A stretch of DNA of 64,000 nucleotides from a bacterium endosymbiont of Escarpia laminata (GCA_003660235.1 QGON01000057.1:42054-106053); one strand, 5' to 3'. Shown: positions 13,524 to 43,649, numbered from the stretch's first letter. Numbers and translations are program-made. The notes: a model not told the origin generated them from the letters alone.

Positions 13524-14996
13524 CTACTTCTTTGCCTTTCTGGTCGCCTCATGCAGGTCGAATGCCAATCGATATGCCGTATAGTATTTGACGATGTTGC
13601 GTGTATAGCGCACGGTCTCCTGGCCTACGATCCTGAGCGCCGCGTGCTCAACATTGAGGAACCAGCGGTCCCTGTCCAGCCCCATTTTTTCGGCTTTTGC
13701 GCGCATTTTGCGTACTTTCGCCGGGCCGGCATTGTAGGCGGCGAGGCTGAAAAAAACGCTGTCCTGCGGTGAGATGGAGGGATCGCTGAAGTAGTGTTTG
13801 CGTAGCCAGGCCAAGTATTTAATACCGGCGTGAATATTGTTCTCCAGCTTCTCGATGTCAGAAATGGCAACATGTTTGTCGGCGGCTGTCGCCTTGCGTA
13901 TCTGCATGATGCCGATAGCTCCGGAGGGATTACGCTTGCGCTGATCGAGTCCGGATTCCTGGTAAGCCTGAGCGGCAATGACCAGCCAGTCGAAATCATA
14001 CTGTTCGGCATATTTTTTAAAAAGGCTACTGACTCGATTCAGACGGTCATGTTCATTGGGTTCCAGGGGGTTTTTGATCCATCGGGTCTTTTCGTAGTAA
14101 CGCTTGAACATCATGTTGCCGAGCAGACTGCCCTTTTTGATCTTCCCGATATAGCCATTCAGGCTCTGCAGTAGTTTGGGGTTGTTCTTTCTTACCGCCC
14201 ACGCAAGCTGGCTGCCGGAATGGATAGGGTGTCCTGGATATAGCTGAATATTTTTCAGCACCTGTGACCAGATCCTGGCGATGTGGTCGTCGGCGACCGT
14301 GTAGTCGATGACCCCGGCGTTGACCATTTCAAGCAGATCTTCGGTCTGCAGATATTCACTCACTTCGATGATCTCGACCGGCAGCCGGTTTTCCCTGCGG
14401 AACCGTTGATTGAGCTGTTTAAGATGTGTGGCGTAGCTGCTGCCTCTCAGCAGATGGAGGGTCTTTCCCGCCAAGTCATTCAGGGAATTCAGGGGTGCGG
14501 TGGATTTCGCGGCTACGATGATCTCCTGCACGTTGGGTAGATAGGGTTTGGTAAATGCGACCATTTTTCTCCGCTCCGGCGTGATGGTCAGCCCGGCTGC
14601 GGCGATGTCCCCTTTGCCTGCGAGCAGAGAGGGCAGCAACTGATCGAAGGGAACAGGGATAAACACCAGGACGGTATTTATCTGGTTTCGCCTATTGTCT
14701 TTGTTGAGGTGTTCTTTATATTTCTCCAGCAATTCGGCTTCAAACCCTTTGCGGTTACCGTTGTGGAGAAAAAAACCGGTGCGGTTGTAACTGACCAGTA
14801 CCCGAATGGCGGCACGCGTCTGTATCTCATCGAGATCACCGGAGAATTGCCGGGTGACCGTATCGAGTATGGAAGAGCCATCCGCTGCTGAGAGGCTCAG
14901 TGGAAGGCAGATCAGCAGCAACAGAGTGACCAGCCGTCGAATGGCATTCAGGGAGTCGTTGCCTTGGAAAAATGTCGGCAAAGTGGCTGTTTCCAT
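13524..14996 (-). CDS. mltF: Membrane-bound lytic murein transglycosylase F (SBP_bac_3 + SLT)
   Basis: Periplasmic binding-like N-terminus (RVLVSYNRTGFF...) plus SLT domain AAQAYQESGLDQRKRNPSGAIGIMQI. Confidence 0.9.
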   Translation of the reverse strand: METATLPTFFQGNDSLNAIRRLVTLLLLICLPLSLSAADGSSILDTVTRQFSGDLDEIQTRAAIRVLVSYNRTGFFLHNGNRKGFEAELLEKYKEHLNKDNRRNQINTVLVFIPVPFDQLLPSLLAGKGDIAAAGLTITPERRKMVAFTKPYLPNVQEIIVAAKSTAPLNSLNDLAGKTLHLLRGSSYATHLKQLNQRFRRENRLPVEIIEVSEYLQTEDLLEMVNAGVIDYTVADDHIARIWSQVLKNIQLYPGHPIHSGSQLAWAVRKNNPKLLQSLNGYIGKIKKGSLLGNMMFKRYYEKTRWIKNPLEPNEHDRLNRVSSLFKKYAEQYDFDWLVIAAQAYQESGLDQRKRNPSGAIGIMQIRKATAADKHVAISDIEKLENNIHAGIKYLAWLRKHYFSDPSISPQDSVFFSLAAYNAGPAKVRKMRAKAEKMGLDRDRWFLNVEHAALRIVGQETVRYTRNIVKYYTAYRLAFDLHEATRKAKK

Positions 14997-15063
14997 CTCG
15001 TTCTCTAATGGTCGTTATGCTTGAATTAGCACCCAACTTATCCTTCCCTTGCGTCATAATCGA

Positions 15064-15083
15064 TACTGTATATAATAACAGTA
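15064..15083. promoter_or_regulatory. SOS box (LexA operator)
   Basis: TACTGTATATAATAACAGTA; core CTGT-N8-ACAG at 15066-15081, just upstream of lexA. Confidence 0.93.
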
Positions 15084-15108
15084 TGAATATAACCACAGGT
15101 CAAGCCCG

Positions 15109-15750
15109 ATGAAGTTGACGCCAAGACAGACAGAGGTCCTTGAGTTGGTTCGCACTCACCTGGAGGTGACAGGTTTTCCACCAACCCGCGCGGAGATTGC
15201 GAAGGCTCTGGGTTTCCGCTCTGTAAATGCAGCTGAGGAGCATCTGCGGGCACTTGCGAAAAAGGGGGCCATTGAACTGCTGAAAGGGCGCTCACGCGGG
15301 ATTCGGTTATTGTTGCCGGACGAGAAGGACGAAGGCATGCCCGTGGTTGGCCGGGTGGCGGCAGGCAGTCCGATTCTTGCAGAAGAGCATATTGAAGAGC
15401 GCTACCCTTTCTCTCCGGAGCTTTTTCATCCGCCGGCAGACTATCTACTGAGGGTGTCGGGTGCGAGTATGCGGGATGTGGGCATTATGGATGGTGACCT
15501 GCTCGCAGTCCATCGCACTTCTGAGGCGCGCAACGGCCAGATTGTGGTGGCGCGTCTGGATGATGAGGTGACAGTAAAACGGTTTCATCGCGATGCCCGG
15601 CATCGACATCTGGTGGTATTGTTGCCGGAGAATGCCGATTTTGAGCCAATCAGGGTTGATCTGCGGGAACAGCACTTAATGATAGAAGGGTTGGGTGTCG
15701 GTGTTCTGCGTCAGGGACTGGAGATTTCGAACCGTTTCAGGCGCACCTAA
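15109..15750 (+). CDS. lexA: LexA repressor
   Basis: [57 protein letters not shown]; peptidase S24 [23 protein letters not shown]. Confidence 0.97.
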
Positions 15751-15887
15751 AAGCGTCGTACCGTATATACTAGGACCCAGGAAGTATTGGACCTCCTGAG
15801 CGATTGCCGACGCTGTGTAACAGTTGAGATCTACACGGGTCGCTGTCGCTGTATTGTCGATTTTGTGTGGGCAGGGGAGACGGTTAG

Positions 15888-16577
15888 GTGCTGGGAGTTC
15901 TGTTACTGGGGTTTCTGATAGGCCTGCAGCACGCGATGGAAGCGGATCATGTTGCGGCAGTCGCGTCCCTGGCAACTCAAAACCGCACCCTTGCACAGAC
16001 AGCCAGGCAGGGTGTTGTCTGGGGTTTGGGACATGCCTTGACGCTGTTTCTCTTTGCTGGAGTGGTGCTGGTTTTCGACTTGATCATGCCTGAGTCTCTG
16101 GCTCGCACCCTGGAATTGACGGTGGGCGTGATGCTGATTCTACTGGGCGTTGATGTTTTGCGTCGTCTGATAAGTGAGAGAGTGCACTTTCACGCCCATA
16201 GTCACGGAGAACTGACCCATTTTCATGCTCACTCCCATCAGGGTGGCGGCGCGCATGATGTTGATCTGCATTTGCATAAACACTCTGAGCGGTTTCCCCT
16301 GCGAGCACTCTTTGTCGGCATGATGCATGGTATGGCGGGTTCCGCCGCGCTGATCCTGCTGGCGCTGGAGACCGTGGCGTCTCCTCTTGAAGGTCTGCTC
16401 TATATCCTGGTTTTCGGTTTTGGTTCAATCGCCGGGATGGGGCTTTTGGCGCTGGTGATCGGTCTGCCCATGCGGCTCTCATCCCGTTCTCTCACATGGG
16501 CGCATAACGGCCTGAAAGGGGGGGTGGGTTTTCTCACGGTGGGGCTGGGTGCTGCTGTGATCGTGTCGGTCATTTAA
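15888..16577 (+). CDS. UreH/NicO-like membrane protein with His-rich loop
   Basis: GFLIGLQHAMEADHVAAVASL plus HFHAHSHGELTHFHAHSH loop; about 6 TM segments. Confidence 0.7.
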   Translation: MLGVLLLGFLIGLQHAMEADHVAAVASLATQNRTLAQTARQGVVWGLGHALTLFLFAGVVLVFDLIMPESLARTLELTVGVMLILLGVDVLRRLISERVHFHAHSHGELTHFHAHSHQGGGAHDVDLHLHKHSERFPLRALFVGMMHGMAGSAALILLALETVASPLEGLLYILVFGFGSIAGMGLLALVIGLPMRLSSRSLTWAHNGLKGGVGFLTVGLGAAVIVSVI

Positions 16578-16719
16578 CGTTTTTTCCGTATCTGCTGACG
16601 GTGCATCACACTTTGTTTGCACGGGTGGATGGAACAAATTGCCAGATTCTCCAGCTCCGGTTAAACTCAACCGTTGATAACTCCCGAATTTTTCACAAAT
16701 TTCTGCAACGGAAAAACAT

Positions 16720-17814
16720 TTGGAAACGGTGCAAAAAATCAATCTGCTGGAGCTCGACCTTAAGTCGATGGAGGCTTTTTTTGTCGACCTGGGCTCAAAG
16801 GCCTTTCATGGCCGCAATGTGTTCAAGTGGATTCACAAACACGGTGTGGTTGATTTTACGGCCATGACCGATATCTCCAAGCGGCTGAGAGAACAACTGG
16901 AAGCCGCGGCAGAGGTGCGTCTGCCAAAACTGGTTTTCGAACAGCCATCCTGGGACGGCACCCGCAAGTGGGTACTGGAACTTGAGGATGGCCAGCGCAT
17001 CGAGACCGTTTATATCCCGGATGATGGGCGCAGTACCATCTGTGTCTCCTCGCAGGTGGGTTGTGCTCTGGACTGCTCCTTCTGCTCCACCGCCCAGCAG
17101 GGGTTCAACCGCAACCTGAGTGTGGCTGAGATTATCGGTCAGGTCTGGGTGGCGGCCCGGGAGCTGGGTCACTCCCCCACCAACGTGGTGATGATGGGCA
17201 TGGGCGAGCCACTGGCCAACTTCGAGCCTGTGGTGACCGCGATGGACATCATGCAGGACGATCTGGCTTACATGCTCTCCAAATACCGCGTGACTATCAG
17301 TACCTCCGGGATTGTGCCTGCCCTGCGGAAATTAAGGGATGTGAGCGACGTCAGCCTCGCCGTCTCCCTGCACGCGCCGGATAATGCGCTGCGTGATGAA
17401 TTGGTGCCGATCAACCGGAAATATCCTCTTGAAGAACTGATTCCCGCCTGCCGTGACTTTATAGAAGGTGATAAGCGGCGCAAGGTGACCTGGGAATATG
17501 TGATGCTTGATGGGATCAATGACAGCATCAAACACGCCAAGGCGTTGATTCGCCTGCTTGAGGGGACACCCTCCAAGGTCAACCTGATTCCGTTCAACCC
17601 GTTCCCCGGCAGCGACTACAAAACCTCACCGCCGGAACGTATCGAAGCCTTTCGCCAGCGGCTGAAACGCTCGGGTATTATTGCCATGACCCGCAAGACC
17701 CGTGGTGACGACATCGATGCCGCCTGCGGCCAATTGGTGGGTAAGGTGCGGGATCGTAGTCGCCGTGATCTCAAACGCAGGCAATCACAGCCTTTGCAGG
17801 TAAATCTCTCATGA
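16720..17814 (+). CDS. rlmN: 23S rRNA (adenine2503-C2)-methyltransferase RlmN
   Basis: Radical SAM CxxxCxxC (GCALDCSFCSTAQQGFNRNLSVAEIIGQVW), VVMMGMGEPLANFE; TTG start. Confidence 0.97.
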   Translation: METVQKINLLELDLKSMEAFFVDLGSKAFHGRNVFKWIHKHGVVDFTAMTDISKRLREQLEAAAEVRLPKLVFEQPSWDGTRKWVLELEDGQRIETVYIPDDGRSTICVSSQVGCALDCSFCSTAQQGFNRNLSVAEIIGQVWVAARELGHSPTNVVMMGMGEPLANFEPVVTAMDIMQDDLAYMLSKYRVTISTSGIVPALRKLRDVSDVSLAVSLHAPDNALRDELVPINRKYPLEELIPACRDFIEGDKRRKVTWEYVMLDGINDSIKHAKALIRLLEGTPSKVNLIPFNPFPGSDYKTSPPERIEAFRQRLKRSGIIAMTRKTRGDDIDAACGQLVGKVRDRSRRDLKRRQSQPLQVNLS

Positions 17815-32778: not shown

Positions 32779-33007
32779 GCTTCCAAAATCCAAATAATGA
32801 GAACTTCCACTGAGTCATCAGGAATCCAGGTCATATTTCTGCGGGGATTCCCTACTTGTTGTCGACATAGATAGGACGAAAATAGCAGATCACTATCTGG
32901 TGTTGCTTGCCTGTCAGGGGACAATTTTCTGAACTATTCAACATTTGCGCAACATTTATATGGAATTGGTGTAACATCCGCTTAGTATCAAAAACAGCTT
33001 GGTGGGT

Positions 33008-35179
33008 ATGGGAAAACGACTGAAAAAGCTGTTTCATTGGCAGCCTGGGCGTGCAGAGTTCCTGTCGCCTTTAAGAAAGCTTACGCGCCCTGTTTTGCCG
33101 CTGGAAAGATTTCAGATCGGTATAGATAACACCCACATCGACATCTTCCTGAGCCCGAAGATCAGCGCTACCGCCAGTGAACTGGTCAGACGCATAGTCA
33201 ATGAGGATCTTGCCCGGAGCAATTGGGGCGAGGTGGGACCAGAAGCCTCCAGCAAAGATTTTGACGCTTTCAGAGATGCCTACAGCGGTTTGATGGAAGT
33301 GGTTGTAGAGCGGGTGCATGACCGTGCAGCGGCGACTGAAATCATTCAACTGTTGCATATGTCGTTATTGAAGCTCCTGCTGGAGTTGCCTGGTCAGGAG
33401 ATTAAACGTCTGCGGCATCAACTGCAGCAGGATTCCAGCAATTTCTCACCTCAGCTGGCAGGACGATCACTGGAGCTGCATGAGCGGGCCGTGGCGCTCG
33501 CAAAGCTTGAGCCGGGGGTCACCTATCGGACCCTGCGGCGTCTATTCAAGGTGGTTCAACGACAGGAATCGACCAGTTTGCGCAAGATGCGCAAGTCGGT
33601 ACTCGGTGCTTCCTGGATGGTTCCCAAGCTGGCACTCTTCAATCCTTTATTGCACCTGCCGAGTCTGACCTGCGAAGAGTATTTCATGAACCACTATCCA
33701 TTGCTTTGCATGGATAATGGCGAACAGAACTTTTTTGCCCTTACCAATCAGATTGTCTGTGATCTGTTTCAGAATTATCTGCCCGAGTGGGCTGTTGCGG
33801 CTGATGAGTTATCCGAGCGTAATGTTCCCCAGGGGCTTCGGATCAAGGAGCGGGATACCGGAGAGGGGATCTCCGGCTTTCTTGAAGGGCAACGTCTGCT
33901 TGAACAGGCGCTGCAGGATGAGGAATTCATGGTGCCGAGAACATCCTGGCTGGATGTCCCCGACAATATCGAACGCCTCATTCAACCCGTAGGCGGACAT
34001 TGGCTTTTCGGGCCTATGAATAAAGCGCCTCAGCCCAATGCGCCATGGCATGACAAAAACTGGCCGGAATTCCAGCAGCGTCTTGCAAGTGAGTTGTTTC
34101 GGCGTTGTCTCAGGGCTGATATTACGCGCCGAGCCGTTGCCTCCTACCGGGCGCCACGTCTCTATCGGCAGTTGGAAGGGCGCATACCTGTCAAGGAGGT
34201 CTACCAGTATCTGGCTGGTGTCATACCAAAACGGAAACTGGTGCGCCGGCTCAGCGCACTGCCCCAGAGTGAGAGCAGCAATGATATGATCAAGGCGCTG
34301 GACATGGTATCCAACCATATTCGGCGCATGTCCACGGCCAAACAGCAGGAGTATGTGGTTCGCTATATCCGGGATTTTCTGGGTTTTCGACGCGACCTCA
34401 AGCTCGCCTATTTCGTGAACCGGGCAATGGCACGGCTGAAATTGCTCTCCTCTCCAGAAGATATCAAGCTTTCGAAAGATAACGGCAGCCTCTACGACTA
34501 CCCGCTGCGTGCCGAGGTGGAGCCGGATGAACAGAAGATCCAGGCGCATGTGATCATGAAGGCGGATCTGCGAGGCTCCACTGAGATCACCAAACAGTTG
34601 TTGGCCAAGAGACTCAACCCGGCCACTCATTTCAGCATGAACTTTTTCGGGCCGATTACCAAGCTGTTGAATGATTTCGGCGCACAGAAGGTATTTGTTG
34701 AGGGGGATGCGCTGATCCTGACCATTCTCGAATATGAAGGTGCGTCTCCCCAGTGGATGAGCGTGGCAAATGCCTGTGGTATGGCGCGCAAAATCCTCTC
34801 CGTAATGGACACGCAGAACACGCAGAATCGCATGCATAATCTGCCGGAACTCGAACTGGGATTGGGCATCGCTTTCAGTGAGGATGCGCCAGCCTACCTC
34901 TACGATGAGCGCCGCAAGATTATGATTTCCCCTGCGATTAATCAGGCTGATCGGCTCTCCTCATGTTCGGCTGAGTTGAAGCGCAACCTGCAGTGGTCGA
35001 GACACAAGGGCCACCGGGTGGAAGTGATGACAGCACTTGGGCAGGATAGCGAAGCGGGCAGACTGTTACGCTATAACGTCAATGGTATCGAGCTTGATTC
35101 GCCAGCATTTTTTAAGCTTAAATCGGAGTTGGCGCTGCACAAAGTACGGTTACGGGATCGTGAAGGAGATTCACACTAG
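33008..35179 (+). CDS. Uncharacterized protein with C-terminal class III nucleotide cyclase-like domain
   Basis: C-terminal MKADLRGSTEITKQL...FFGPITKLLNDFGAQKVFVEGDALILTI...LGLGIAFSE...RRKIMISPAINQADRLSSC parallels the cyclase homology domain. Confidence 0.75.
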   Translation: MGKRLKKLFHWQPGRAEFLSPLRKLTRPVLPLERFQIGIDNTHIDIFLSPKISATASELVRRIVNEDLARSNWGEVGPEASSKDFDAFRDAYSGLMEVVVERVHDRAAATEIIQLLHMSLLKLLLELPGQEIKRLRHQLQQDSSNFSPQLAGRSLELHERAVALAKLEPGVTYRTLRRLFKVVQRQESTSLRKMRKSVLGASWMVPKLALFNPLLHLPSLTCEEYFMNHYPLLCMDNGEQNFFALTNQIVCDLFQNYLPEWAVAADELSERNVPQGLRIKERDTGEGISGFLEGQRLLEQALQDEEFMVPRTSWLDVPDNIERLIQPVGGHWLFGPMNKAPQPNAPWHDKNWPEFQQRLASELFRRCLRADITRRAVASYRAPRLYRQLEGRIPVKEVYQYLAGVIPKRKLVRRLSALPQSESSNDMIKALDMVSNHIRRMSTAKQQEYVVRYIRDFLGFRRDLKLAYFVNRAMARLKLLSSPEDIKLSKDNGSLYDYPLRAEVEPDEQKIQAHVIMKADLRGSTEITKQLLAKRLNPATHFSMNFFGPITKLLNDFGAQKVFVEGDALILTILEYEGASPQWMSVANACGMARKILSVMDTQNTQNRMHNLPELELGLGIAFSEDAPAYLYDERRKIMISPAINQADRLSSCSAELKRNLQWSRHKGHRVEVMTALGQDSEAGRLLRYNVNGIELDSPAFFKLKSELALHKVRLRDREGDSH

Positions 35180-35396
35180 CCGCTATTTGGATCGCCACGG
35201 CACGACACACTGGCTGGTGGTGCGTGAAGCACCGGTGTTGCTCTGGCAAGGTGATGTTACGGCAGGCCCCGAGCCGCTGGGGCGTCATTTCTTTGAAGTC
35301 GTCACTGAACTCAAACTGGTCGCCCGGGTCAAAGCCAAACTCAGTTCAAAGCATAAGGATTCACGTAACGGTCGGCAAACGGGTTCGGCCGGGTAG
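35160..35396 (+). CDS. Small hypothetical protein overlapping the cyclase-like gene
   Basis: GTG-initiated frame (M)KEIHTSRYLDRHGTTHWLVVREAPVLLWQGDVTAGPEPLGRHFFEVVTELKLVARVKAKL; 20-bp overlap with the upstream stop. Confidence 0.4.
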   Translation: MKEIHTSRYLDRHGTTHWLVVREAPVLLWQGDVTAGPEPLGRHFFEVVTELKLVARVKAKLSSKHKDSRNGRQTGSAG

Positions 35397-35767: not shown

Positions 35768-37732
35768 GTGTGTGGTATTGCGGGCATTGCTGCTAAATTG
35801 GTAAATGGTGCGGGAAATCTTGGACGGGTACGTCGCATGATTTCGCAAATCACTCATCGCGGCCCAGATGATGAAGGTTATTTTTTTGATTCCGGTATCT
35901 GCCTGGGGCATGCACGTCTTAGCATTATTGATCTGGACAGTGGCCATCAGCCAATAGCAAACGAAGACAAGTCGATCCTTGTTGTTTTTAACGGTGAAAT
36001 TTTCAATTACATTGAATTACGCTCTGACCTTATAAGGGCGGGACATCACTTTTCGTCCCTCTCCGATACTGAAGTGATAGTTCATCTTTATGAAGATTAT
36101 GGCGATGATTTCGTACATTATCTTAATGGACAGTTTTCCATCGCCTTGTGGGATAAAAATAAGCAGAAACTGCTTCTTGTACGGGATCGAGTAGGAATCG
36201 TTCCTCTCTTCTATACACATGTTGACAATAATCTGATTTTTGCCTCAGAAATAAAGGCAATTCTTCCTGCGCTCCACTCTTCCCCGAGCATAAATATTCA
36301 TGCCTTGGACCAGATAATGACGTTCTGGAGTTCCGTAGGTCAGGAAACGATATTTGAAGAAATTTATGAGGTCGAGCCTGGAAAGATGGTGGTATTTCAG
36401 GATGGCAAAATTGCTCACTCTCAATACTGGGAGTGGGAATTTACCGATGCGCATTATGATGAATCTGACCATGATTTGGCCGAACAACTTGAAGATCTGC
36501 TTGATGATGCAATTAGATTAAGATTGCGTTCAGACGTCCCTGTCGGGGCCTATTTATCCGGTGGTTTGGATTCATCAGTACTAACCTCGCTAGCTCACCG
36601 ACACAAGAAGGACAACCTGAGAACTTTTTCTATTGGTTTTGATGATAAAAGTTTCGATGAAAGTAGCTATCAAAAGGAGATGATCAAATATTTGGGAAGC
36701 GAACATAGTCATCTTTCATGCTCATATCAGGATATATCAAGTAACTTTTTGCAATCTATCTGGAATATCGAAGCGCCGATTTTAAGGACTGCACCAGTGC
36801 CAATGGGGTTGCTCTCCGGCATGGTCAGAAAACAGGGATATAAGGTTGTATTGACCGGAGAAGGGGCTGATGAGGTATTTGGCGGTTATGACATATTCAA
36901 GGAGACGAAGATCCGTCAGTTCTGGGCGAAAAATCCGGATTCATCCTTTCGTGCGGTATTGCTGAAGAGACTTTATCCATATCTGAATATTTCCCAACCC
37001 CAAGCCTTAGTTTACCTGAAAAACTTTTTTGGCGCAGGCCTGGATGACCCGAACTCTCCGTTTTTCTCCCATATTCCAAGATGGCTGACTACTGCAAAGA
37101 CCAAAGCGTTTTTTTCAGAAGATATCAATGCTCAGCTTTCAAAATCGGCTATCGATTCGATAAGCGAAAGATTTTCACCAGCAATGTCGAATATGGACGC
37201 TTTCCAAAAGGCCCAATTTATTGAGTCACGGATGTTGATGCCTGGATATCTTCTTTCATCGCAGGGGGACAGGATGTTAATGAAAAATTCGGTAGAAGGC
37301 CGTTTTCCATTTCTCGATCATAGGATTATCGAGTTTGCCAATGGCATACATCCGACAAAGAAGATGAAAGTTATCAATGAGAAATATCTGCTTAAGTTTG
37401 CCATGCGGAAACGTGTACCTGAGAAGATTATCAACCGATTCAAGCAGCCCTATAGGGCGCCTGATATCCCCGCTTTTTTCAGAGAAGACGGTGAGTCGGA
37501 TGTCACTGAACTATTAGGAACTGATTATATAAAGAAATATGGTTTTTTTGACGATAAAAAGGTATTGCGGCTAATTGAGAAAATCCGGCGCGGACGTGCA
37601 ACGAGTTACAAAGACAATATGGCGCTAGTCGGTATTTTGTCGACTCAGGCTGTTAACCACCTGTTTGTGGACAAACAAGTGACAGGGAATCAAATGTTGG
37701 ACATTAATGAGGGCATATCATATGGCTGTTAG
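35768..37732 (+). CDS. asnB: Asparagine synthase (glutamine-hydrolysing)-like amidotransferase
   Basis: CGIAGIAAKL, ISQITHRGPDDEG, LSIIDLDSGHQPIANED, VFNGEIFNYIELR, VPVGAYLSGGLDSS. GTG start at 35768 places the nucleophile Cys at position 2. Confidence 0.9.
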   Translation: MCGIAGIAAKLVNGAGNLGRVRRMISQITHRGPDDEGYFFDSGICLGHARLSIIDLDSGHQPIANEDKSILVVFNGEIFNYIELRSDLIRAGHHFSSLSDTEVIVHLYEDYGDDFVHYLNGQFSIALWDKNKQKLLLVRDRVGIVPLFYTHVDNNLIFASEIKAILPALHSSPSINIHALDQIMTFWSSVGQETIFEEIYEVEPGKMVVFQDGKIAHSQYWEWEFTDAHYDESDHDLAEQLEDLLDDAIRLRLRSDVPVGAYLSGGLDSSVLTSLAHRHKKDNLRTFSIGFDDKSFDESSYQKEMIKYLGSEHSHLSCSYQDISSNFLQSIWNIEAPILRTAPVPMGLLSGMVRKQGYKVVLTGEGADEVFGGYDIFKETKIRQFWAKNPDSSFRAVLLKRLYPYLNISQPQALVYLKNFFGAGLDDPNSPFFSHIPRWLTTAKTKAFFSEDINAQLSKSAIDSISERFSPAMSNMDAFQKAQFIESRMLMPGYLLSSQGDRMLMKNSVEGRFPFLDHRIIEFANGIHPTKKMKVINEKYLLKFAMRKRVPEKIINRFKQPYRAPDIPAFFREDGESDVTELLGTDYIKKYGFFDDKKVLRLIEKIRRGRATSYKDNMALVGILSTQAVNHLFVDKQVTGNQMLDINEGISYGC

Positions 37733-37967
37733 AGAAGAAATTAGGAGTTATGTATTGGATAACTACCTGTTTACCGATGACCAATCGAAGTTAGAGGACG
37801 ATAATTCGTTTCTTGAAACCGGCATTCTGGATTCAAATGGAGTAATGGAGATTATCTTTTTCCTGGAAGATGAATATGGTGTGTCTATTTCACAGGAAGA
37901 GATGATTCCGGAGAATCTGGATTCTGTTTCAAGAATTGTAAAATTTGTCGAATCGAAGAATGGATAG
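37722..37967 (+). CDS. Acyl/peptidyl carrier protein
   Basis: FLETGILDSNGVMEIIFFLEDEYGVSISQEEM; phosphopantetheine Ser in LDSNG. Start set at ATG 37722. Confidence 0.88.
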   Translation: MAVREEIRSYVLDNYLFTDDQSKLEDDNSFLETGILDSNGVMEIIFFLEDEYGVSISQEEMIPENLDSVSRIVKFVESKNG

Positions 37968-39504
37968 TCTCTTTCATCCTGAAAATTCGAATTTAGCATG
38001 GGCATTTGTAAATAATGCCCATGCGTATCTTAATTCTGATGCAGTGGTTTCCGGTAGTCGCCGGATAACCTATGCGGAGTTATTAGGAAATGTCGGTCAG
38101 GTAAAGGACTATCTGACAGAATATGAAATAAAAAAAGGGGCAAGAGTTGCTCTTTATCTTTCCAATTCACCGGAATATATCGCGATTTTCTACGGGGTGC
38201 TGGCAGCAGGTGGAACTGTAGTGCCATTGAATACCGGTGCAAAATCAAGAGATATCGATAACTGGGTAAGGCACTCCGGGGCGGATTGGTTTTTTTTCGA
38301 TGGCAGAAATAGAGAGGCCCGTATCACAATCCCTGAGCTGGGAAAAAAGGTTCGTTGTGTAGGAATAGGCAGCGCTGACTCAGATGGGTCTGGTTGGTTT
38401 GACTCAATCGATACGATTTCGGCAGATCCTAAATCATCATTGGATGTCGTTGCGGTAAATAATCGTGATCTCGCAATGATCATCTACACATCAGGCACTA
38501 CAGGTAGGCCCAAGGGTGTGTCGCTGAGTCATGGTAATCTGAAATCCAATTTCAGCGCAATAATAAAAGGATTGGGATTGTCCGCTTCCGACAGGATTTT
38601 GAGTGTACTGCCCTTCTATTATTCCTATGGGAACTCTGTTCTCAATACTCACTTGCTGACAGGGGGATGCCTGGTACTGGAGAAAAGCATGATGTACCCG
38701 CAGTTGATAGTGGATAAGTTTGATCAGGAAAATATTACCGGTTTCTATGGCGTGCCATCAACCTACGCAATTTTATTGAAAAGAACGAATCTCAAAGAGA
38801 AGAATTTTTCTGCGTTTCGTTTGATGGCTCAAGCAGGAGGGCCCATGCCGCCTGCACATATCAATGAGTTAAAAACATTGATTGGAGAGACAGATTTTTA
38901 TGTGATGTACGGGCAAACAGAAGCCAGTGCAAGATTAACCATTCTGGATGCCGGAAGTCTGAACGAAAGACTTGGATCGATAGGTAAGGCAGTTGATGGA
39001 GTGACTATCGAGGTAAGGAATAAAGATGGGCAGCTGGTTGAAAGTGGGGTGACAGGTGAGCTTTGCGCCTTCGGAAAAAATATTATGCCGGGTTACTGGA
39101 GAGACGAAGCCTTAACCAGTTGTGCCATGGTGGATGGCTGGTTACATACTGGTGATCTTGCGCATACCGACGATGAGGGCTTTCTCTATATCGATGGCAG
39201 GACTTCTGACATGATTAAATCCGGTGCCAACAGAATCAGTCCGAAGGAGATCGAAGAGATTATTTCTGAACTTCCGGATGTTGTCGAAGTGGCGGTGGTG
39301 GGGATGCCTGACGTATTGATGGGTGAGGCGATTAAGGCATTTATCGTTCTTGCGCCAGATGCTGAATTGGATCAGAGAATAATCCAGTCTTATTGTTTGA
39401 AAAACCTGGCTAATTATAAAGTGCCAAAGAAAATCTCCTTTATTGATGAGCTTCAAAAAACCCAGTCAGGGAAGGTGAAGCGCTACCTCCTCAAGGCGAG
39501 TTGA
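37960..39504 (+). CDS. AMP-forming acyl ligase (ANL superfamily)
   Basis: LAMIIYTSGTTGRPKGVSLSHGNL; YVMYGQTEAS; GWLHTGDLAHTDDEGFLYIDGR; C-terminal KTQSGKVKRYLL. Overlaps the carrier-protein stop. Confidence 0.92.
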   Translation: MDSLFHPENSNLAWAFVNNAHAYLNSDAVVSGSRRITYAELLGNVGQVKDYLTEYEIKKGARVALYLSNSPEYIAIFYGVLAAGGTVVPLNTGAKSRDIDNWVRHSGADWFFFDGRNREARITIPELGKKVRCVGIGSADSDGSGWFDSIDTISADPKSSLDVVAVNNRDLAMIIYTSGTTGRPKGVSLSHGNLKSNFSAIIKGLGLSASDRILSVLPFYYSYGNSVLNTHLLTGGCLVLEKSMMYPQLIVDKFDQENITGFYGVPSTYAILLKRTNLKEKNFSAFRLMAQAGGPMPPAHINELKTLIGETDFYVMYGQTEASARLTILDAGSLNERLGSIGKAVDGVTIEVRNKDGQLVESGVTGELCAFGKNIMPGYWRDEALTSCAMVDGWLHTGDLAHTDDEGFLYIDGRTSDMIKSGANRISPKEIEEIISELPDVVEVAVVGMPDVLMGEAIKAFIVLAPDAELDQRIIQSYCLKNLANYKVPKKISFIDELQKTQSGKVKRYLLKAS

Positions 39505-39505
39505 A

Positions 39506-40504
39506 ATGAGTACACAAGATATGAATGATATTTTTAAAAAGGCCCTGGACTTCGACAAAGAAAAAGACGTTGAAAAGACATCAAGCCGAATCAAGGAGAT
39601 CTTACGCGATAAACTCAAGAAGAGGGGGCTTGTGGTGGCTGTCTCCGGTGGAATCGACAGTTCCGTCTCGCTGGCATTGAGCATCGAGGCGATCGGAGTT
39701 AATAAGGTATATGCGCTACTGCTTCCTGAGAAGGACTCCTCGGGTGAAACCGGTGACAGGGGGCTTGAGCTTGTTAAGCACTTCGGTGTTGGATATGAAG
39801 AAAAAAATATAGCTCCAACATTGGAAGCGATAGGTTGTTACAGCGAGCGGGATGCTGCTATCAAACGGGTGATACCGTCTTATGATAATGACTGGAAATC
39901 CAAGATAGTGATTACCGGTGGCCTGGATGGGCGTTTTAACCATTTTCTTCTAGTGGCTCAGGCGCCGGATGGCACCATGCACGAGGAGCCACTTCGTTTA
40001 AAGGAATATCTGCAAATTGTCGCAGCGACCAATTTCAAGCAGAGAATAAGGAAAACTTTGGAATATTATCATGCGGATCGGCTTAATTACGCAGTAGTGG
40101 GTACTCCCAACAGACTGGAATATGATCAGGGCTTTTTTGTCAAAAATGGCGATGGCTCAGCTGATGTTAAGCCTATTGCCCATCTTTATAAGACACAGGT
40201 ATATGCGCTCGCTGAACACCTTGGCTTACCTGAAAGCATTCGCAACGCACCTCCCACCACCGATACATATAGTCTTTCCCAATCGCAGGAAGAGTTTTAT
40301 TTTGCCCTTCCCTATCAGAAAATGGATATTGCCCTTTGGGCGTTCAATCATGAAGTGGCGGCAGAAGAGTTGGCGATAGAGCTGGGTATGACGGCAGAGC
40401 AAGCCGCGTACGTTTATAAGGACATTAAGGCAAAGAGAAGGACAACTGCAAATTTACATCTTAAACCGCAGCTTATTGAGAAGGTTAAAGAGATCCAAAT
40501 CTAA
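39506..40504 (+). CDS. NAD synthase-like PP-loop amidotransferase (synthetase domain only)
   Basis: LVVAVSGGIDSSVSLALS; VVGTPNRLEYDQGFFVKNGDGSADVKPIAHLYKTQVYALAEHLGLP. Confidence 0.85.
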   Translation: MSTQDMNDIFKKALDFDKEKDVEKTSSRIKEILRDKLKKRGLVVAVSGGIDSSVSLALSIEAIGVNKVYALLLPEKDSSGETGDRGLELVKHFGVGYEEKNIAPTLEAIGCYSERDAAIKRVIPSYDNDWKSKIVITGGLDGRFNHFLLVAQAPDGTMHEEPLRLKEYLQIVAATNFKQRIRKTLEYYHADRLNYAVVGTPNRLEYDQGFFVKNGDGSADVKPIAHLYKTQVYALAEHLGLPESIRNAPPTTDTYSLSQSQEEFYFALPYQKMDIALWAFNHEVAAEELAIELGMTAEQAAYVYKDIKAKRRTTANLHLKPQLIEKVKEIQI

Positions 40505-40520
40505 TTCGGATTCAGAGCCA

Positions 40521-41585
40521 GTGAACTATTCAGTAATAAAGGCAAACCTTAAACAAGACAAGGAGGTGATAATCAAGTTTTGGAATGAAAACCATAATCA
40601 GGGCAGGGTGCTTGATCCTAAGTTCTCATGGATTTATGAGGGTAATCCGGATGGAGAGACACATGTATGGATGTTGATCCATCGTGATGATCAGGAAATA
40701 ATTGGATTGGCCGCAGTTTTTTCTAAGAAAGTTCTAGTGGGGGGGGTAGTGTGCAAAGCTGGAATCTCTGGTGATTTCTTTGTTCGGAAGGAACACCGCT
40801 CTCTCGGGCCTGCTTTGATGCTGATTGAAACAATCGTTAAATCGGAGGAAATCGCAGATATTGATTTTCTATACGGCTTTCCAAATGATGCGGCAAGACT
40901 GATATTCAGAAGAGTGGGATATAAAAAACTAGGTTTATTGGTCGGACGAGTAAGAATATTTCAATCGAAGAAGTATCTCCTTAATAAGGGGTTGCCTGAA
41001 TTTCTTGCCGGGATGATTAGCCCGTTAACGGATTCACTGATAAGAATTATGTCACCTGAAACATGGGATTTTGATTTTTTTCGACATTATTCAGAGATAG
41101 TGGATGAACTGGGCTCGGACTATGATGAGTTCAGAAGAGGTTTAAATATCTATAAATCAGTATCAGTTCCAAATAAAAGTTCAAAATATATGAACTGGAA
41201 GTATGGTCTGGATCCCTATCAGAGAAATAAATTTTTCTGTCTATATAAGAGGGAAGATAACTCTTGGGTTGGGTGTATTGCATTTAGCATCACAGACGGT
41301 TTTGCGGAAATACGTGACTTGGTTGTCAGCGATGAATATTCGGCATTGGATGACTTGGTTTACCGGTTTCTTGAGTACTCCAGAAAACTGGATGTACTGG
41401 GCGTAAGATACGTACTGCTTGAGAAAAGCAGGATGGAAAAGGACTTGTCCAGGTTTGATTTTTTTCCTCAAAAAAACCCAAGAGATATCGTTGTCTTGGT
41501 TAGAAACAAAGATCTGCTAACCAATGAAGTTTCAATATTGGATAGAAATAAATGGATCTTGTTTAATACGGACCAAGATACATAA
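40521..41585 (+). CDS. GNAT-like acyltransferase, apparently two GNAT-like halves
   Basis: N-terminal VVCKAGISGDFFVRKEHRSLGPALMLIE; C-terminal KYMNWKYGLDPYQRNKFFCLYKRE...AEIRDLVVSDEYSALDDLVYRFLEYSRK. GTG at 40521 avoids a longer overlap; the open frame extends to 40476. Confidence 0.7.
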   Translation: MNYSVIKANLKQDKEVIIKFWNENHNQGRVLDPKFSWIYEGNPDGETHVWMLIHRDDQEIIGLAAVFSKKVLVGGVVCKAGISGDFFVRKEHRSLGPALMLIETIVKSEEIADIDFLYGFPNDAARLIFRRVGYKKLGLLVGRVRIFQSKKYLLNKGLPEFLAGMISPLTDSLIRIMSPETWDFDFFRHYSEIVDELGSDYDEFRRGLNIYKSVSVPNKSSKYMNWKYGLDPYQRNKFFCLYKREDNSWVGCIAFSITDGFAEIRDLVVSDEYSALDDLVYRFLEYSRKLDVLGVRYVLLEKSRMEKDLSRFDFFPQKNPRDIVVLVRNKDLLTNEVSILDRNKWILFNTDQDT

Positions 41586-41639: not shown

Positions 41640-43649
41640 TTACCCCTCAACAGGCTCCTGCAAAATAATCGGTTTTAACCACTCCTCCGACAGGCTGAGG
41701 GGGGCTTCTCCCAACCTGTGAGAGTAGATGACAGTGTAAGCAAGTACGCGTTTCAAATACTCTCGGGTCTCCCGAAACGGAACTGTCTCGATCCAGACGT
41801 CGGTTGGCTGTGATTCTTTTGGCAGCCACTTCATTACGCGCCAAGGGCCTGCATTGTATGCGGCTGTAGCCAGTACTGGGTTGTTCTGCAGTTTCTGATA
41901 GATGCTCTCCAGATAGCTGGTGCCCAGTTTGATATTGACTCCGGGTTGCAGAAGATCCCGGGTTTTGAAGGGACCGTGCCGGGTGATTGTCGCTACATCG
42001 CGGGCGGTGCGGGGCATTAGCTGCATAAGGCCCAAGGCGCCGGCACTGGAACGGGCATCGGTCATAAAGGCACTCTCCTGACGCAGAATGGCGTAGATCC
42101 AGGCGTGGTCGATATCGAGACTCTTGGCCTGTTGGTCGATCAACGTCCTGTGGGTGAGGGGGAAACGGAGCTCCAGATCATTCCAGTGACGGATCTTTGC
42201 CAAGGTGAAAATGGCCTGAGAAGGCCAATCCCACTGCTGTGCCAGGCGGGCTGCGCCCTTGAGTTCATCGGTGCTGCGGTTACTCAGTGCCCAGTTCCAC
42301 TCACGACGTGCGTCGATGGGCCTGTGCAGAACTTTCAGCTCTCTTGCCCGCTGCATGCCGGGTTGACTGGCGATGCGATCCACTACGTCATCGGCGACAT
42401 CAATGGCTGCATGAGCCATGGTGAAGCGGGTACCCAGACGATTGGTTGCCATGAAGCCATAGTAGCTGCGGTTCTTCGCCAGTGTTTCGAGCAGTTGGTT
42501 GCCTTTCTCCTGCTGGCCAAGTTGTAATAGCGCCCTGGCACGCCAGTACCGCCAGCGCTCTTTCGAGCTGTCTGACTCGGGGAGGCCGGCAATGGTGGCG
42601 AGTACCCGTTCCCAGTCCTGGGACTCCAGGGCCTGACGGAACTGCTTGTCGGAGAGCTTCGGATCCAGCCGCAGATGCTTTGGCACAACCTGTTCGATTA
42701 TCCGGGAAAATGTCTCCCCGGATGTGTCCACCAGATTGGCGGCAAGTGTGCGGCCTACGGTGAGTTTCTGAGCATCTGTGAATTGTCCTCGCAGTTGCAA
42801 CGATTGCCAAAATTCGAAGGCCTTTTCGGGGTTATTTCGAGCAAGCCGTTGGACCCCGTGAACCAGAATCTCGTCCCGCATGGGGTGATTTTGCTGCAGA
42901 CGCTGATTCTGCATCAGCTTTTGTGGATGACGATGAATGTCGATCCAGAGGCTGACCCAGTTAGCCTCGCTGTTTGGCAGGAAACGTTTGAGATATCTTG
43001 CCAGACGAATCTGCCTGGCCTGCATGGCGAGGCTGATCCGCTGCCATACCAGCGTATCGGTTAATTCACCGGCATCATTCCACGCCTTGAACACCGGATC
43101 ACAGGCCTTTGGGCGGGAACGGCCGCTAAGCCAGACAGGTTCGATTTGAGTAAACGCGTGCTGTTGCTGGCCGGTTTCGATCAGTGCCCGCAGGCGGTAG
43201 CACTGGCGTTTTATACTTCCCCCCGGTTTGGCAAAATCGAGATAGGTTTTCCAGCGATGCTTGTCTGCCAACAAGTTCAGCCAGTTGTTACGCAGTCTGC
43301 TGCTAAGCGGCGTATCGGCATACTTATCTACGAATGTCCGGATGGTTTGGGGCTTCTGCCGTGCCAGATGCCGGGTAATCTCCTGGTATTCTAGATAGGG
43401 CTGCAGAGGATAGTCCTGCAGTTGATCCTTGAGTACCTGGTATTTTTTTAACTGGCCCTTTTTCAGAGCCTGTTCGGCGTCGAGAAACTGTTGTCGGGCC
43501 GCCTTGAGTTCTGGAGGGTCAGTGATAGTGGCTTGGGCGGGGCTGAGCCAGAGTGGCAGCAGAGAGAGAGCCGCGCATAACCATTGGATGAAACGCGATG
43601 GACGCCGAGTTTTAGGTCTGATTGTTTGAGGCATGTTCCGCTGCACCAT
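41640..43649 (-). CDS. slt: Soluble lytic murein transglycosylase
   Basis: SLT motif AILRQESAFMTDARSSAGALGLMQLMPRTA; ATAAYNAGPWRVMKWL; long alpha-helical U domain. Confidence 0.94.
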   Translation of the reverse strand: MVQRNMPQTIRPKTRRPSRFIQWLCAALSLLPLWLSPAQATITDPPELKAARQQFLDAEQALKKGQLKKYQVLKDQLQDYPLQPYLEYQEITRHLARQKPQTIRTFVDKYADTPLSSRLRNNWLNLLADKHRWKTYLDFAKPGGSIKRQCYRLRALIETGQQQHAFTQIEPVWLSGRSRPKACDPVFKAWNDAGELTDTLVWQRISLAMQARQIRLARYLKRFLPNSEANWVSLWIDIHRHPQKLMQNQRLQQNHPMRDEILVHGVQRLARNNPEKAFEFWQSLQLRGQFTDAQKLTVGRTLAANLVDTSGETFSRIIEQVVPKHLRLDPKLSDKQFRQALESQDWERVLATIAGLPESDSSKERWRYWRARALLQLGQQEKGNQLLETLAKNRSYYGFMATNRLGTRFTMAHAAIDVADDVVDRIASQPGMQRARELKVLHRPIDARREWNWALSNRSTDELKGAARLAQQWDWPSQAIFTLAKIRHWNDLELRFPLTHRTLIDQQAKSLDIDHAWIYAILRQESAFMTDARSSAGALGLMQLMPRTARDVATITRHGPFKTRDLLQPGVNIKLGTSYLESIYQKLQNNPVLATAAYNAGPWRVMKWLPKESQPTDVWIETVPFRETREYLKRVLAYTVIYSHRLGEAPLSLSEEWLKPIILQEPVEG

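Follow-up and report, generated by a model that had tools for sequence, protein, structure and literature searches.

Gene content of the cassette

The window analysed here is a stretch of 64,000 nucleotides from a bacterium endosymbiont of Escarpia laminata (GCA_003660235.1, QGON01000057.1:42054-106053), in which positions 35768-41585 hold a cassette of five genes on the plus strand. A sequence-only reading of the window had described these genes as tightly packed or overlapping; all five are intact, and their coordinates, overlaps and families proved to be as claimed. The first gene (35768-37732, GTG start) encodes an AsnB-type amidotransferase of 654 amino acids that begins with MCGIAGI and comprises a class II glutaminase and a PP-loop synthetase domain. 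It overlaps by 11 nt with the gene of a discrete acyl/peptidyl carrier protein (ACP; 37722-37967, 81 amino acids, DS motif for phosphopantetheine), which in turn overlaps by 8 nt with that of an AMP-forming (ANL) acyl ligase of the 'FYYSYGNS' type (37960-39504, 514 amino acids, PF00501 and PF13193). After a gap of 1 nt follows a NadE-like PP-loop protein of 332 amino acids (39506-40504), a putative amide synthetase and module-specific paralogue within PRK00876/NF002048. The last gene, from about 40521 to 41585 (GTG start, 354 amino acids; a TTG at 40476 is an alternative start), encodes a double-GNAT N-acyltransferase. Searches with Pfam and NCBIfam confirmed the families as Asn_synthase/GATase_7, PP-binding, AMP-binding, NAD_synthase and Acetyltransf.

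Purifying selection acts on each of the five genes. In comparisons with congeners, the ratio of nonsynonymous to synonymous substitution rates was 0.07-0.24 across the cassette, with 0.08-0.10 for AsnB and about 0.07-0.08 for the NadE-like gene, which is lower than the 0.16-0.19 of the flanking genes slt and glcF. Together with the recurrence of the same gene set in distant genomes, this argues against a chance assembly.

Conservation as a module

Contigs of the GTDB species set were searched with the NadE-like protein, which gave at least 589 confirmed stretches. The best 80 were kept and, because these represent the closest relatives, 21 loci from evenly drawn genomes were added. Near the NadE-like gene, the ligase was found in 76, the ACP in 74 and AsnB in 64 of the 80 closest loci, and in 18, 20 and 17, respectively, of the 21 evenly drawn ones. 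The exact five-gene order of the window, which should recur elsewhere if the genes form a conserved unit as the sequence-only reading had proposed, was indeed present in 18 of the 78 loci with sufficient upstream sequence, and the exact four-gene order in 27 more. Shuffled orders occur elsewhere, such as NadE-AsnB-ligase-ACP in genomes that belong to the phylum but not to the class. That the genes are rearranged yet stay together indicates a link that goes beyond shared synteny.

The four genes occur together across Alpha-, Beta- and Gammaproteobacteria (the first label being tentative and standing for the same phylum, other class) and in metagenome-assembled genomes of Myxococcota type. When pairwise distances were compared, those of the NadE-like protein correlated with the distances of AsnB (rho 0.54), the ligase (0.35), the ACP (0.31) and the GNAT protein (0.84), and none of 300 permutations reached values as high. 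That the cassette represents a widespread conserved module of AsnB, ACP, ligase and NadE-like protein, with the double GNAT as an optional component, is thereby well supported. The distribution is patchy: the NadE-like protein was detected in 10 of 291 evenly drawn gammaproteobacterial genomes, spread over 10 families, and in 15 of 399 evenly drawn genomes of the phylum.

The NadE-like protein

The NadE-like protein matches NF002048 (PRK00876), a model named NAD(+) synthase, with 474.4 bits (cut-off 313), and its NAD_synthase domain (PF02540, 146.9 bits) places it in the NadE fold and sequence family. Its AlphaFold2 model (pLDDT 88) resembles, according to Foldseek, the NH3-dependent NAD synthetases 2e18 (E 2e-15), 1xng and 3fiu, and also the Francisella nicotinamide mononucleotide (NMN) synthetase. 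Fold, PP-loop and GDG..D motif are common to these enzymes and the NadE-like protein, and the PP-loop, GTPN (GT-N-E) and GDG..D motifs, which it shares with NAD synthetases, are invariant among 60 homologues. Unlike NadE, the protein has a conserved beta insert of about 55 residues (about 110-165) that separates the PP-loop half from the second half and in which C111, Y112, R115, D116, P124, Y126, W130, K133 and N145 are invariant in the 60 homologues. It also differs from NadE in that its gene is bound to the module and that a separate NAD synthase exists in the genome.

The latter is a full-length glutamine-dependent enzyme (NF010588-type, 783 bits) encoded on contig C53. A separate NAD synthase was matched in all 27 tested cassette-bearing genomes, in 25 of them above the curated cut-off, so the NadE-like protein is not the sole or main NAD synthase. 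The endosymbiont genome further contains two other AsnB homologues, of which one is the true N-acetylglutaminylglutamine amide (NAGGN) amidotransferase (contig C53, 969 bits to TIGR03104). Neither the AsnB nor the NadE-like protein of the cassette is a housekeeping synthetase; the sequence-only reading had named this as the explanation that would undo its proposal, and it is rejected on the separate NAD synthases, the other AsnB copies and the patchy distribution of the NadE-like protein. The gene of the NAGGN amidotransferase (L151, 32-3270) is preceded by one for a protein weakly similar to caprolactamase beta.

AsnB, carrier protein and double GNAT

The cassette AsnB scored 492.6 bits with TIGR01536 (asparagine synthase, glutamine-hydrolysing; cut-off 267.1), a broad model that also takes in amidotransferases other than asparagine synthases. 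It remained below the cut-offs of two narrower models, TIGR03108 for the XrtA/PEP-CTERM amidotransferase (417.7 against 816.9 bits) and TIGR03104 for the NAGGN amidotransferase (356.4 against 570.1 bits). The N-terminal Cys and the NGEI, SDTE, SGGLDSS, GEGADEVFGGY and KQ motifs align with Escherichia coli AsnB (1ct9), and the catalytic motifs of both the glutaminase and the PP-loop synthetase domain are intact. The ACP matched PF00550 with 21.5 bits, above the gathering score, and missed its nearest NCBIfam model, NF052616 (ACP for OlsHI, ornithine lipid), with 56.7 bits against a cut-off of 130.

For the last protein of the cassette, the match to Acetyltransf_1 was 26.6 bits. Its AlphaFold2 model (pLDDT 92) consists of two tandem GNAT folds, and a full-length Foldseek comparison found N-myristoyltransferases (NMT) and the double-GNAT acetyltransferases 2hv2 and 2i00, which identifies it as a double-GNAT acyltransferase. 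A GNAT homologue lies near the NadE-like gene in 30 of the 80 closest and 4 of the 21 evenly drawn loci.

Ligase subtypes and the PrmC-like methyltransferase

The window ligase fell below the cut-off of the model for XrtA-associated acyl ligases (TIGR03098, ligase_PEP_1; 317.8 against 592 bits), as did a relative with the other ligase subtype (L077, 426 bits). In amino-acid adenylation domains, the Asp of the A4 motif binds the alpha-amino group. Alignment with the adenylation domain of a nonribosomal peptide synthetase (NRPS) and with other ligases places a Ser at this position in the window ligase, and an Asp in the other subtype and in the NRPS adenylation domain of locus L073. The window ligase thus lacks the Asp of an alpha-amino-acid-activating domain, and the Ser in its place suggests that this subtype handles an acid that is not an amino acid.

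The A4 Asp was present in 21 of the 92 ligases compared. A PrmC-like methyltransferase, with NPPY in all but two of the detected genes, accompanies 19 of the 21 Asp-type ligases and none of the 71 others, in loci that are not independent of each other. On the tree of the NadE-like protein, ligase type and methyltransferase both change about nine times, the methyltransferase never in the direction opposite to the ligase. We read this pattern as a joint swap of ligase and methyltransferase while the NadE-like protein and AsnB remain. PrmC enzymes methylate the amide nitrogen of glutamine, in keeping with an amide-bearing amino acid in the Asp-type subtype. The coupling of ligase subtype and methyltransferase would directly predict which acyl groups are N-methylated.

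Genomic neighbourhoods

In a sample of 146 neighbours, the types of family encountered most often were glycosyltransferases, polysaccharide deacetylases, hexapeptide acyltransferases, PrmC-like methyltransferases, XrtA/PEP-CTERM components and undecaprenyl-phosphate sugar transferases. Many relatives of the module, including the NadE-like gene, sit in XrtA/PEP-CTERM or other exopolysaccharide loci. The sequence-only reading had set the cassette apart from exosortase A-associated polysaccharide loci; at the level of the module this contrast is wrong, since relatives are very often found inside such loci and the endosymbiont genome itself has an XrtA locus, with exosortase, PrsK, PrsR, PrsT and a tyrosine autokinase, on the separate contig C11. 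The window cassette itself does not adjoin exosortase or exopolysaccharide genes, its flanks being a cyclase-like gene and slt. Of the two products that had been envisaged, a small molecule or a glycan decoration, the neighbourhoods favour the latter; that the product is N-acylated and amidated we infer.

Other neighbours recur at a lower frequency. A gene for 3-ketoacyl-ACP synthase III (KAS III) lies beside the module in L041, L055, L057, L064, L073, L091 and L094, mostly with a protein of about 380 amino acids that has no Pfam hit and in some cases with a small ACP, ketoreductases and a FabA-like dehydratase, a set that looks like a mini acyl-building pathway. Locus L073 also contains an NRPS-type adenylation-carrier-ketosynthase protein (14708-16945) near the module. 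An IorAB-like molybdenum hydroxylase (2Fe-2S and molybdopterin subunits, or the large subunit alone) was found beside the module in 7 of the 80 loci, outside polysaccharide loci; sites are L116 (2331-4933), L024, L027, L031, L034, L040, L045 and L052. A VOC protein resembling methylmalonyl-CoA epimerase occurs beside or inside the module in 4 of the 80 loci and three others (L120, 2740-3138; L022, L034, L084, L097, L116 and L117), which may point to a branched dicarboxylic acyl thioester.

Composition and history of the cassette

The cassette is flanked on its 5' side by the cyclase-like gene (32999-35179) and on its 3' side by slt (41640-43649, minus strand). The GC content of AsnB, ACP, ligase, NadE-like and double-GNAT genes is 42.6, 37.0, 44.8, 45.6 and 39.0%, against 53.4% for the cyclase-like gene, 55.6% for slt and 57.4% for glcF. 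At third codon positions the contrast is larger, with 39-47% in the cassette versus 62-64% in flanking genes, so the claim that the cassette is richer in A+T than its surroundings stands. The GC contrast and the patchy distribution over 10 families fit the horizontal acquisition proposed from the sequence alone. This acquisition was not recent, since the NadE-like gene occupies one and the same chromosomal site in four of the five congeners, and one of these copies is decayed.

In the congener G003 the cassette is complete apart from a break in the GNAT frame and a contig end within AsnB; the double-GNAT match there lies in two frames (L115, 9835-10897), which reflects a frameshift or an assembly error. 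G002 (L114, 7822-13030) has a decaying copy, from which deletion has removed AsnB, the ACP gene and the 5' portion of the ligase gene, leaving the NadE-like and GNAT genes. G004 and G005 have a complete cassette with additional genes around it. G001 is without the cassette; its slt match stops at residue 555, and its glcF region is partly repeated in tandem (L113, 6563-8919). Synonymous divergence between the window and G004 or G005 is 0.35-1.1 in the cassette, higher than the 0.2-0.25 or so of flanking genes, which may reflect replacement or separate acquisition or, alternatively, faster synonymous evolution of AT-rich genes.

In two congeners (L117, 9292-15015; L116, 11210-16245) the cassette is flanked by LarB, LarE, LarC, a VOC protein and a Tat-signal-like protein of 423-424 amino acids, all absent beside the window cassette. 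LarB acts on nicotinic acid adenine dinucleotide (NaAD), and LarBCE are genes of the nickel-pincer cofactor. A functional link to LarBCE was considered and rejected as chance neighbourhood, as no Lar homologue was near the module in any of the 80 other loci. The cyclase-like gene of the window ends early (site 35037-35396), and the frame in G004 runs about 75 residues further. The missing tail can be read in another frame here, indicating that a small frameshift truncates the gene.

Proposed function and alternatives

We consider the chances about even that the module makes an amidated acyl group which decorates a surface polysaccharide. In favour of this scheme are the cohesion of the four genes, the correlated protein distances, the separate NAD synthases, the polysaccharide-type neighbourhoods, the intact AsnB motifs and the coupling of ligase subtype and methyltransferase. 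In this scheme, for which we infer the substrates, the order of steps and the acceptor, the ligase would adenylate a carboxylic acid and then load it onto the phosphopantetheine arm of the ACP. In the window subtype this would be an acid without an alpha-amino group, e.g., a dicarboxylic or hydroxy acid. AsnB would amidate a free carboxylate with nitrogen from glutamine, and the NadE-like enzyme would adenylate and amidate a second carboxylate, either on the acyl group or on an acceptor sugar acid. In the last step, the double GNAT would take the acyl group off the ACP and attach it to an amine, which would most likely belong to an amino sugar.

More generally, we propose, with a probability of roughly 0.55, that this NadE branch, whose members carry the annotation NAD(+) synthase in many proteobacteria, is a dedicated amide synthetase repurposed for exopolysaccharide decoration, acting within a four-enzyme module in which the ligase, with or without the PrmC-like methyltransferase, forms a swapped specificity cartridge. 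Several observations weigh against the decoration scheme. The residues typical of NaAD-binding NAD synthetases are retained, so NaAD activity stays possible on sequence and the NadE-like protein may amidate NaAD. No glycosyltransferase adjoins the cassette in the window or in Thiodiazotropha-type loci, which makes a polysaccharide target indirect for the window cassette. The double GNAT is present in only about a third of the loci, and another transferase must serve elsewhere. Finally, well-supported branches give only five independent ligase/methyltransferase pairs, which agree in 4.5 cases on average and disagree in none (sign test, p 0.0625-0.25, median 0.125).

As an alternative, AsnB and the NadE-like enzyme may act on the sugar, converting nucleotide-sugar uronic acids to uronamides, while ligase, ACP and GNAT independently acylate an amine of the same sugar. 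We regard this as possible though doubtful. The nearest proven analogue of the cassette, and a precedent for the main scheme too, is found in Porphyromonas gingivalis, where a linking sugar of lipopolysaccharide is made into a uronamide by the AsnB-type WbpS and receives an amino acid from the GNAT-like VimA (PMC7468200). The likeness lies in the pairing of AsnB-type amidation with GNAT-like N-acylation, VimA being comparable to the double GNAT by description; the accessible text of that paper mentions no NadE-like enzyme or discrete ligase/ACP module, unlike the cassette. It is also consistent with sugar amidation that, according to the same text, the AsnB-type enzymes WbpS and WbqG make uronamides of O-antigen and anionic lipopolysaccharide (A-LPS) and are members of the XrtA amidotransferase family. 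NAD synthetases bind a dinucleotide carboxylate, which makes the acid of a nucleotide sugar a plausible substrate, and the ligase subtype varies against a constant background of NadE-like protein and AsnB. Yet the window AsnB lies well under the XrtA amidotransferase cut-off, its gene overlaps or abuts that of the ACP in most loci rather than sugar-nucleotide genes, and uronate dehydrogenases were not recurrent among the sampled neighbours.

It is rather improbable that the cassette product is a diffusible amidated small molecule, i.e., a secondary metabolite, instead of a polysaccharide decoration. The lack of flanking glycosyltransferases in the window would agree with this, as would the NRPS/ketosynthase, KAS III, ketoreductase and dehydratase neighbours in related loci and the ABC-2 transporter, molybdenum hydroxylase and VOC neighbours in relatives of the window, but polysaccharide genes dominate the neighbourhood sample and many loci lie within XrtA loci. 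A reading of the NadE-like protein and AsnB as the usual NAD and asparagine synthetases of housekeeping metabolism, adjacent by chance, agrees with the name of NF002048 and the TIGR01536 score but is virtually untenable in view of the separate NAD synthases, the occurrence of the NadE-like protein in only about 3% of the gammaproteobacterial genomes drawn, its nearly constant company of ACP and ligase, and its specific conserved insert.

Relation to known systems and implications

The cassette can be compared with several known systems. The XrtA/PEP-CTERM exopolysaccharide genes (TIGR03108, TIGR03098) share an AsnB-type amidotransferase, an ANL ligase and a carrier protein with the cassette, which differs by the scores of its AsnB and ligase below the cut-offs of those models, by its constant NadE-like partner, by the lack of a pyridoxal phosphate-dependent decarboxylase in the window and by the position of the window copy outside the XrtA locus. 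NAGGN synthesis links an AsnB-type amidotransferase with a GNAT-containing enzyme, but the window AsnB misses the corresponding cut-off and the true NAGGN amidotransferase of the genome is another gene. OxyD, which provides the malonamyl starter unit of oxytetracycline, is of AsnB type, amidates a dicarboxylic acid bound as a thioester and serves as a lead only; to our knowledge this polyketide pathway has no NadE-like partner.

In the open-access literature, with subscription journals outside the search, we found no description of a NadE-like/AsnB/ACP polysaccharide module. In the passages retrieved from polysaccharide papers on Rubrivivax, Thauera and Zoogloea, which feature several asparagine synthases, an ACP, ligase or NadE-like partner is not mentioned, and the 2006 PEP-CTERM/EpsH paper mentions none of the module genes. 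While the AsnB, ligase and ACP families of XrtA loci are already known (NCBIfam), the module with the NadE-like protein is apparently undescribed.

Relatives of the NadE-like protein are encoded in at least 589 candidate stretches of the GTDB species set, under a family model named NAD(+) synthase. If the proposal is true, this name misleads metabolic reconstructions, and a new chemical group would be found on environmental exopolysaccharides. NadE enzymes would then act outside NAD and NMN synthesis.

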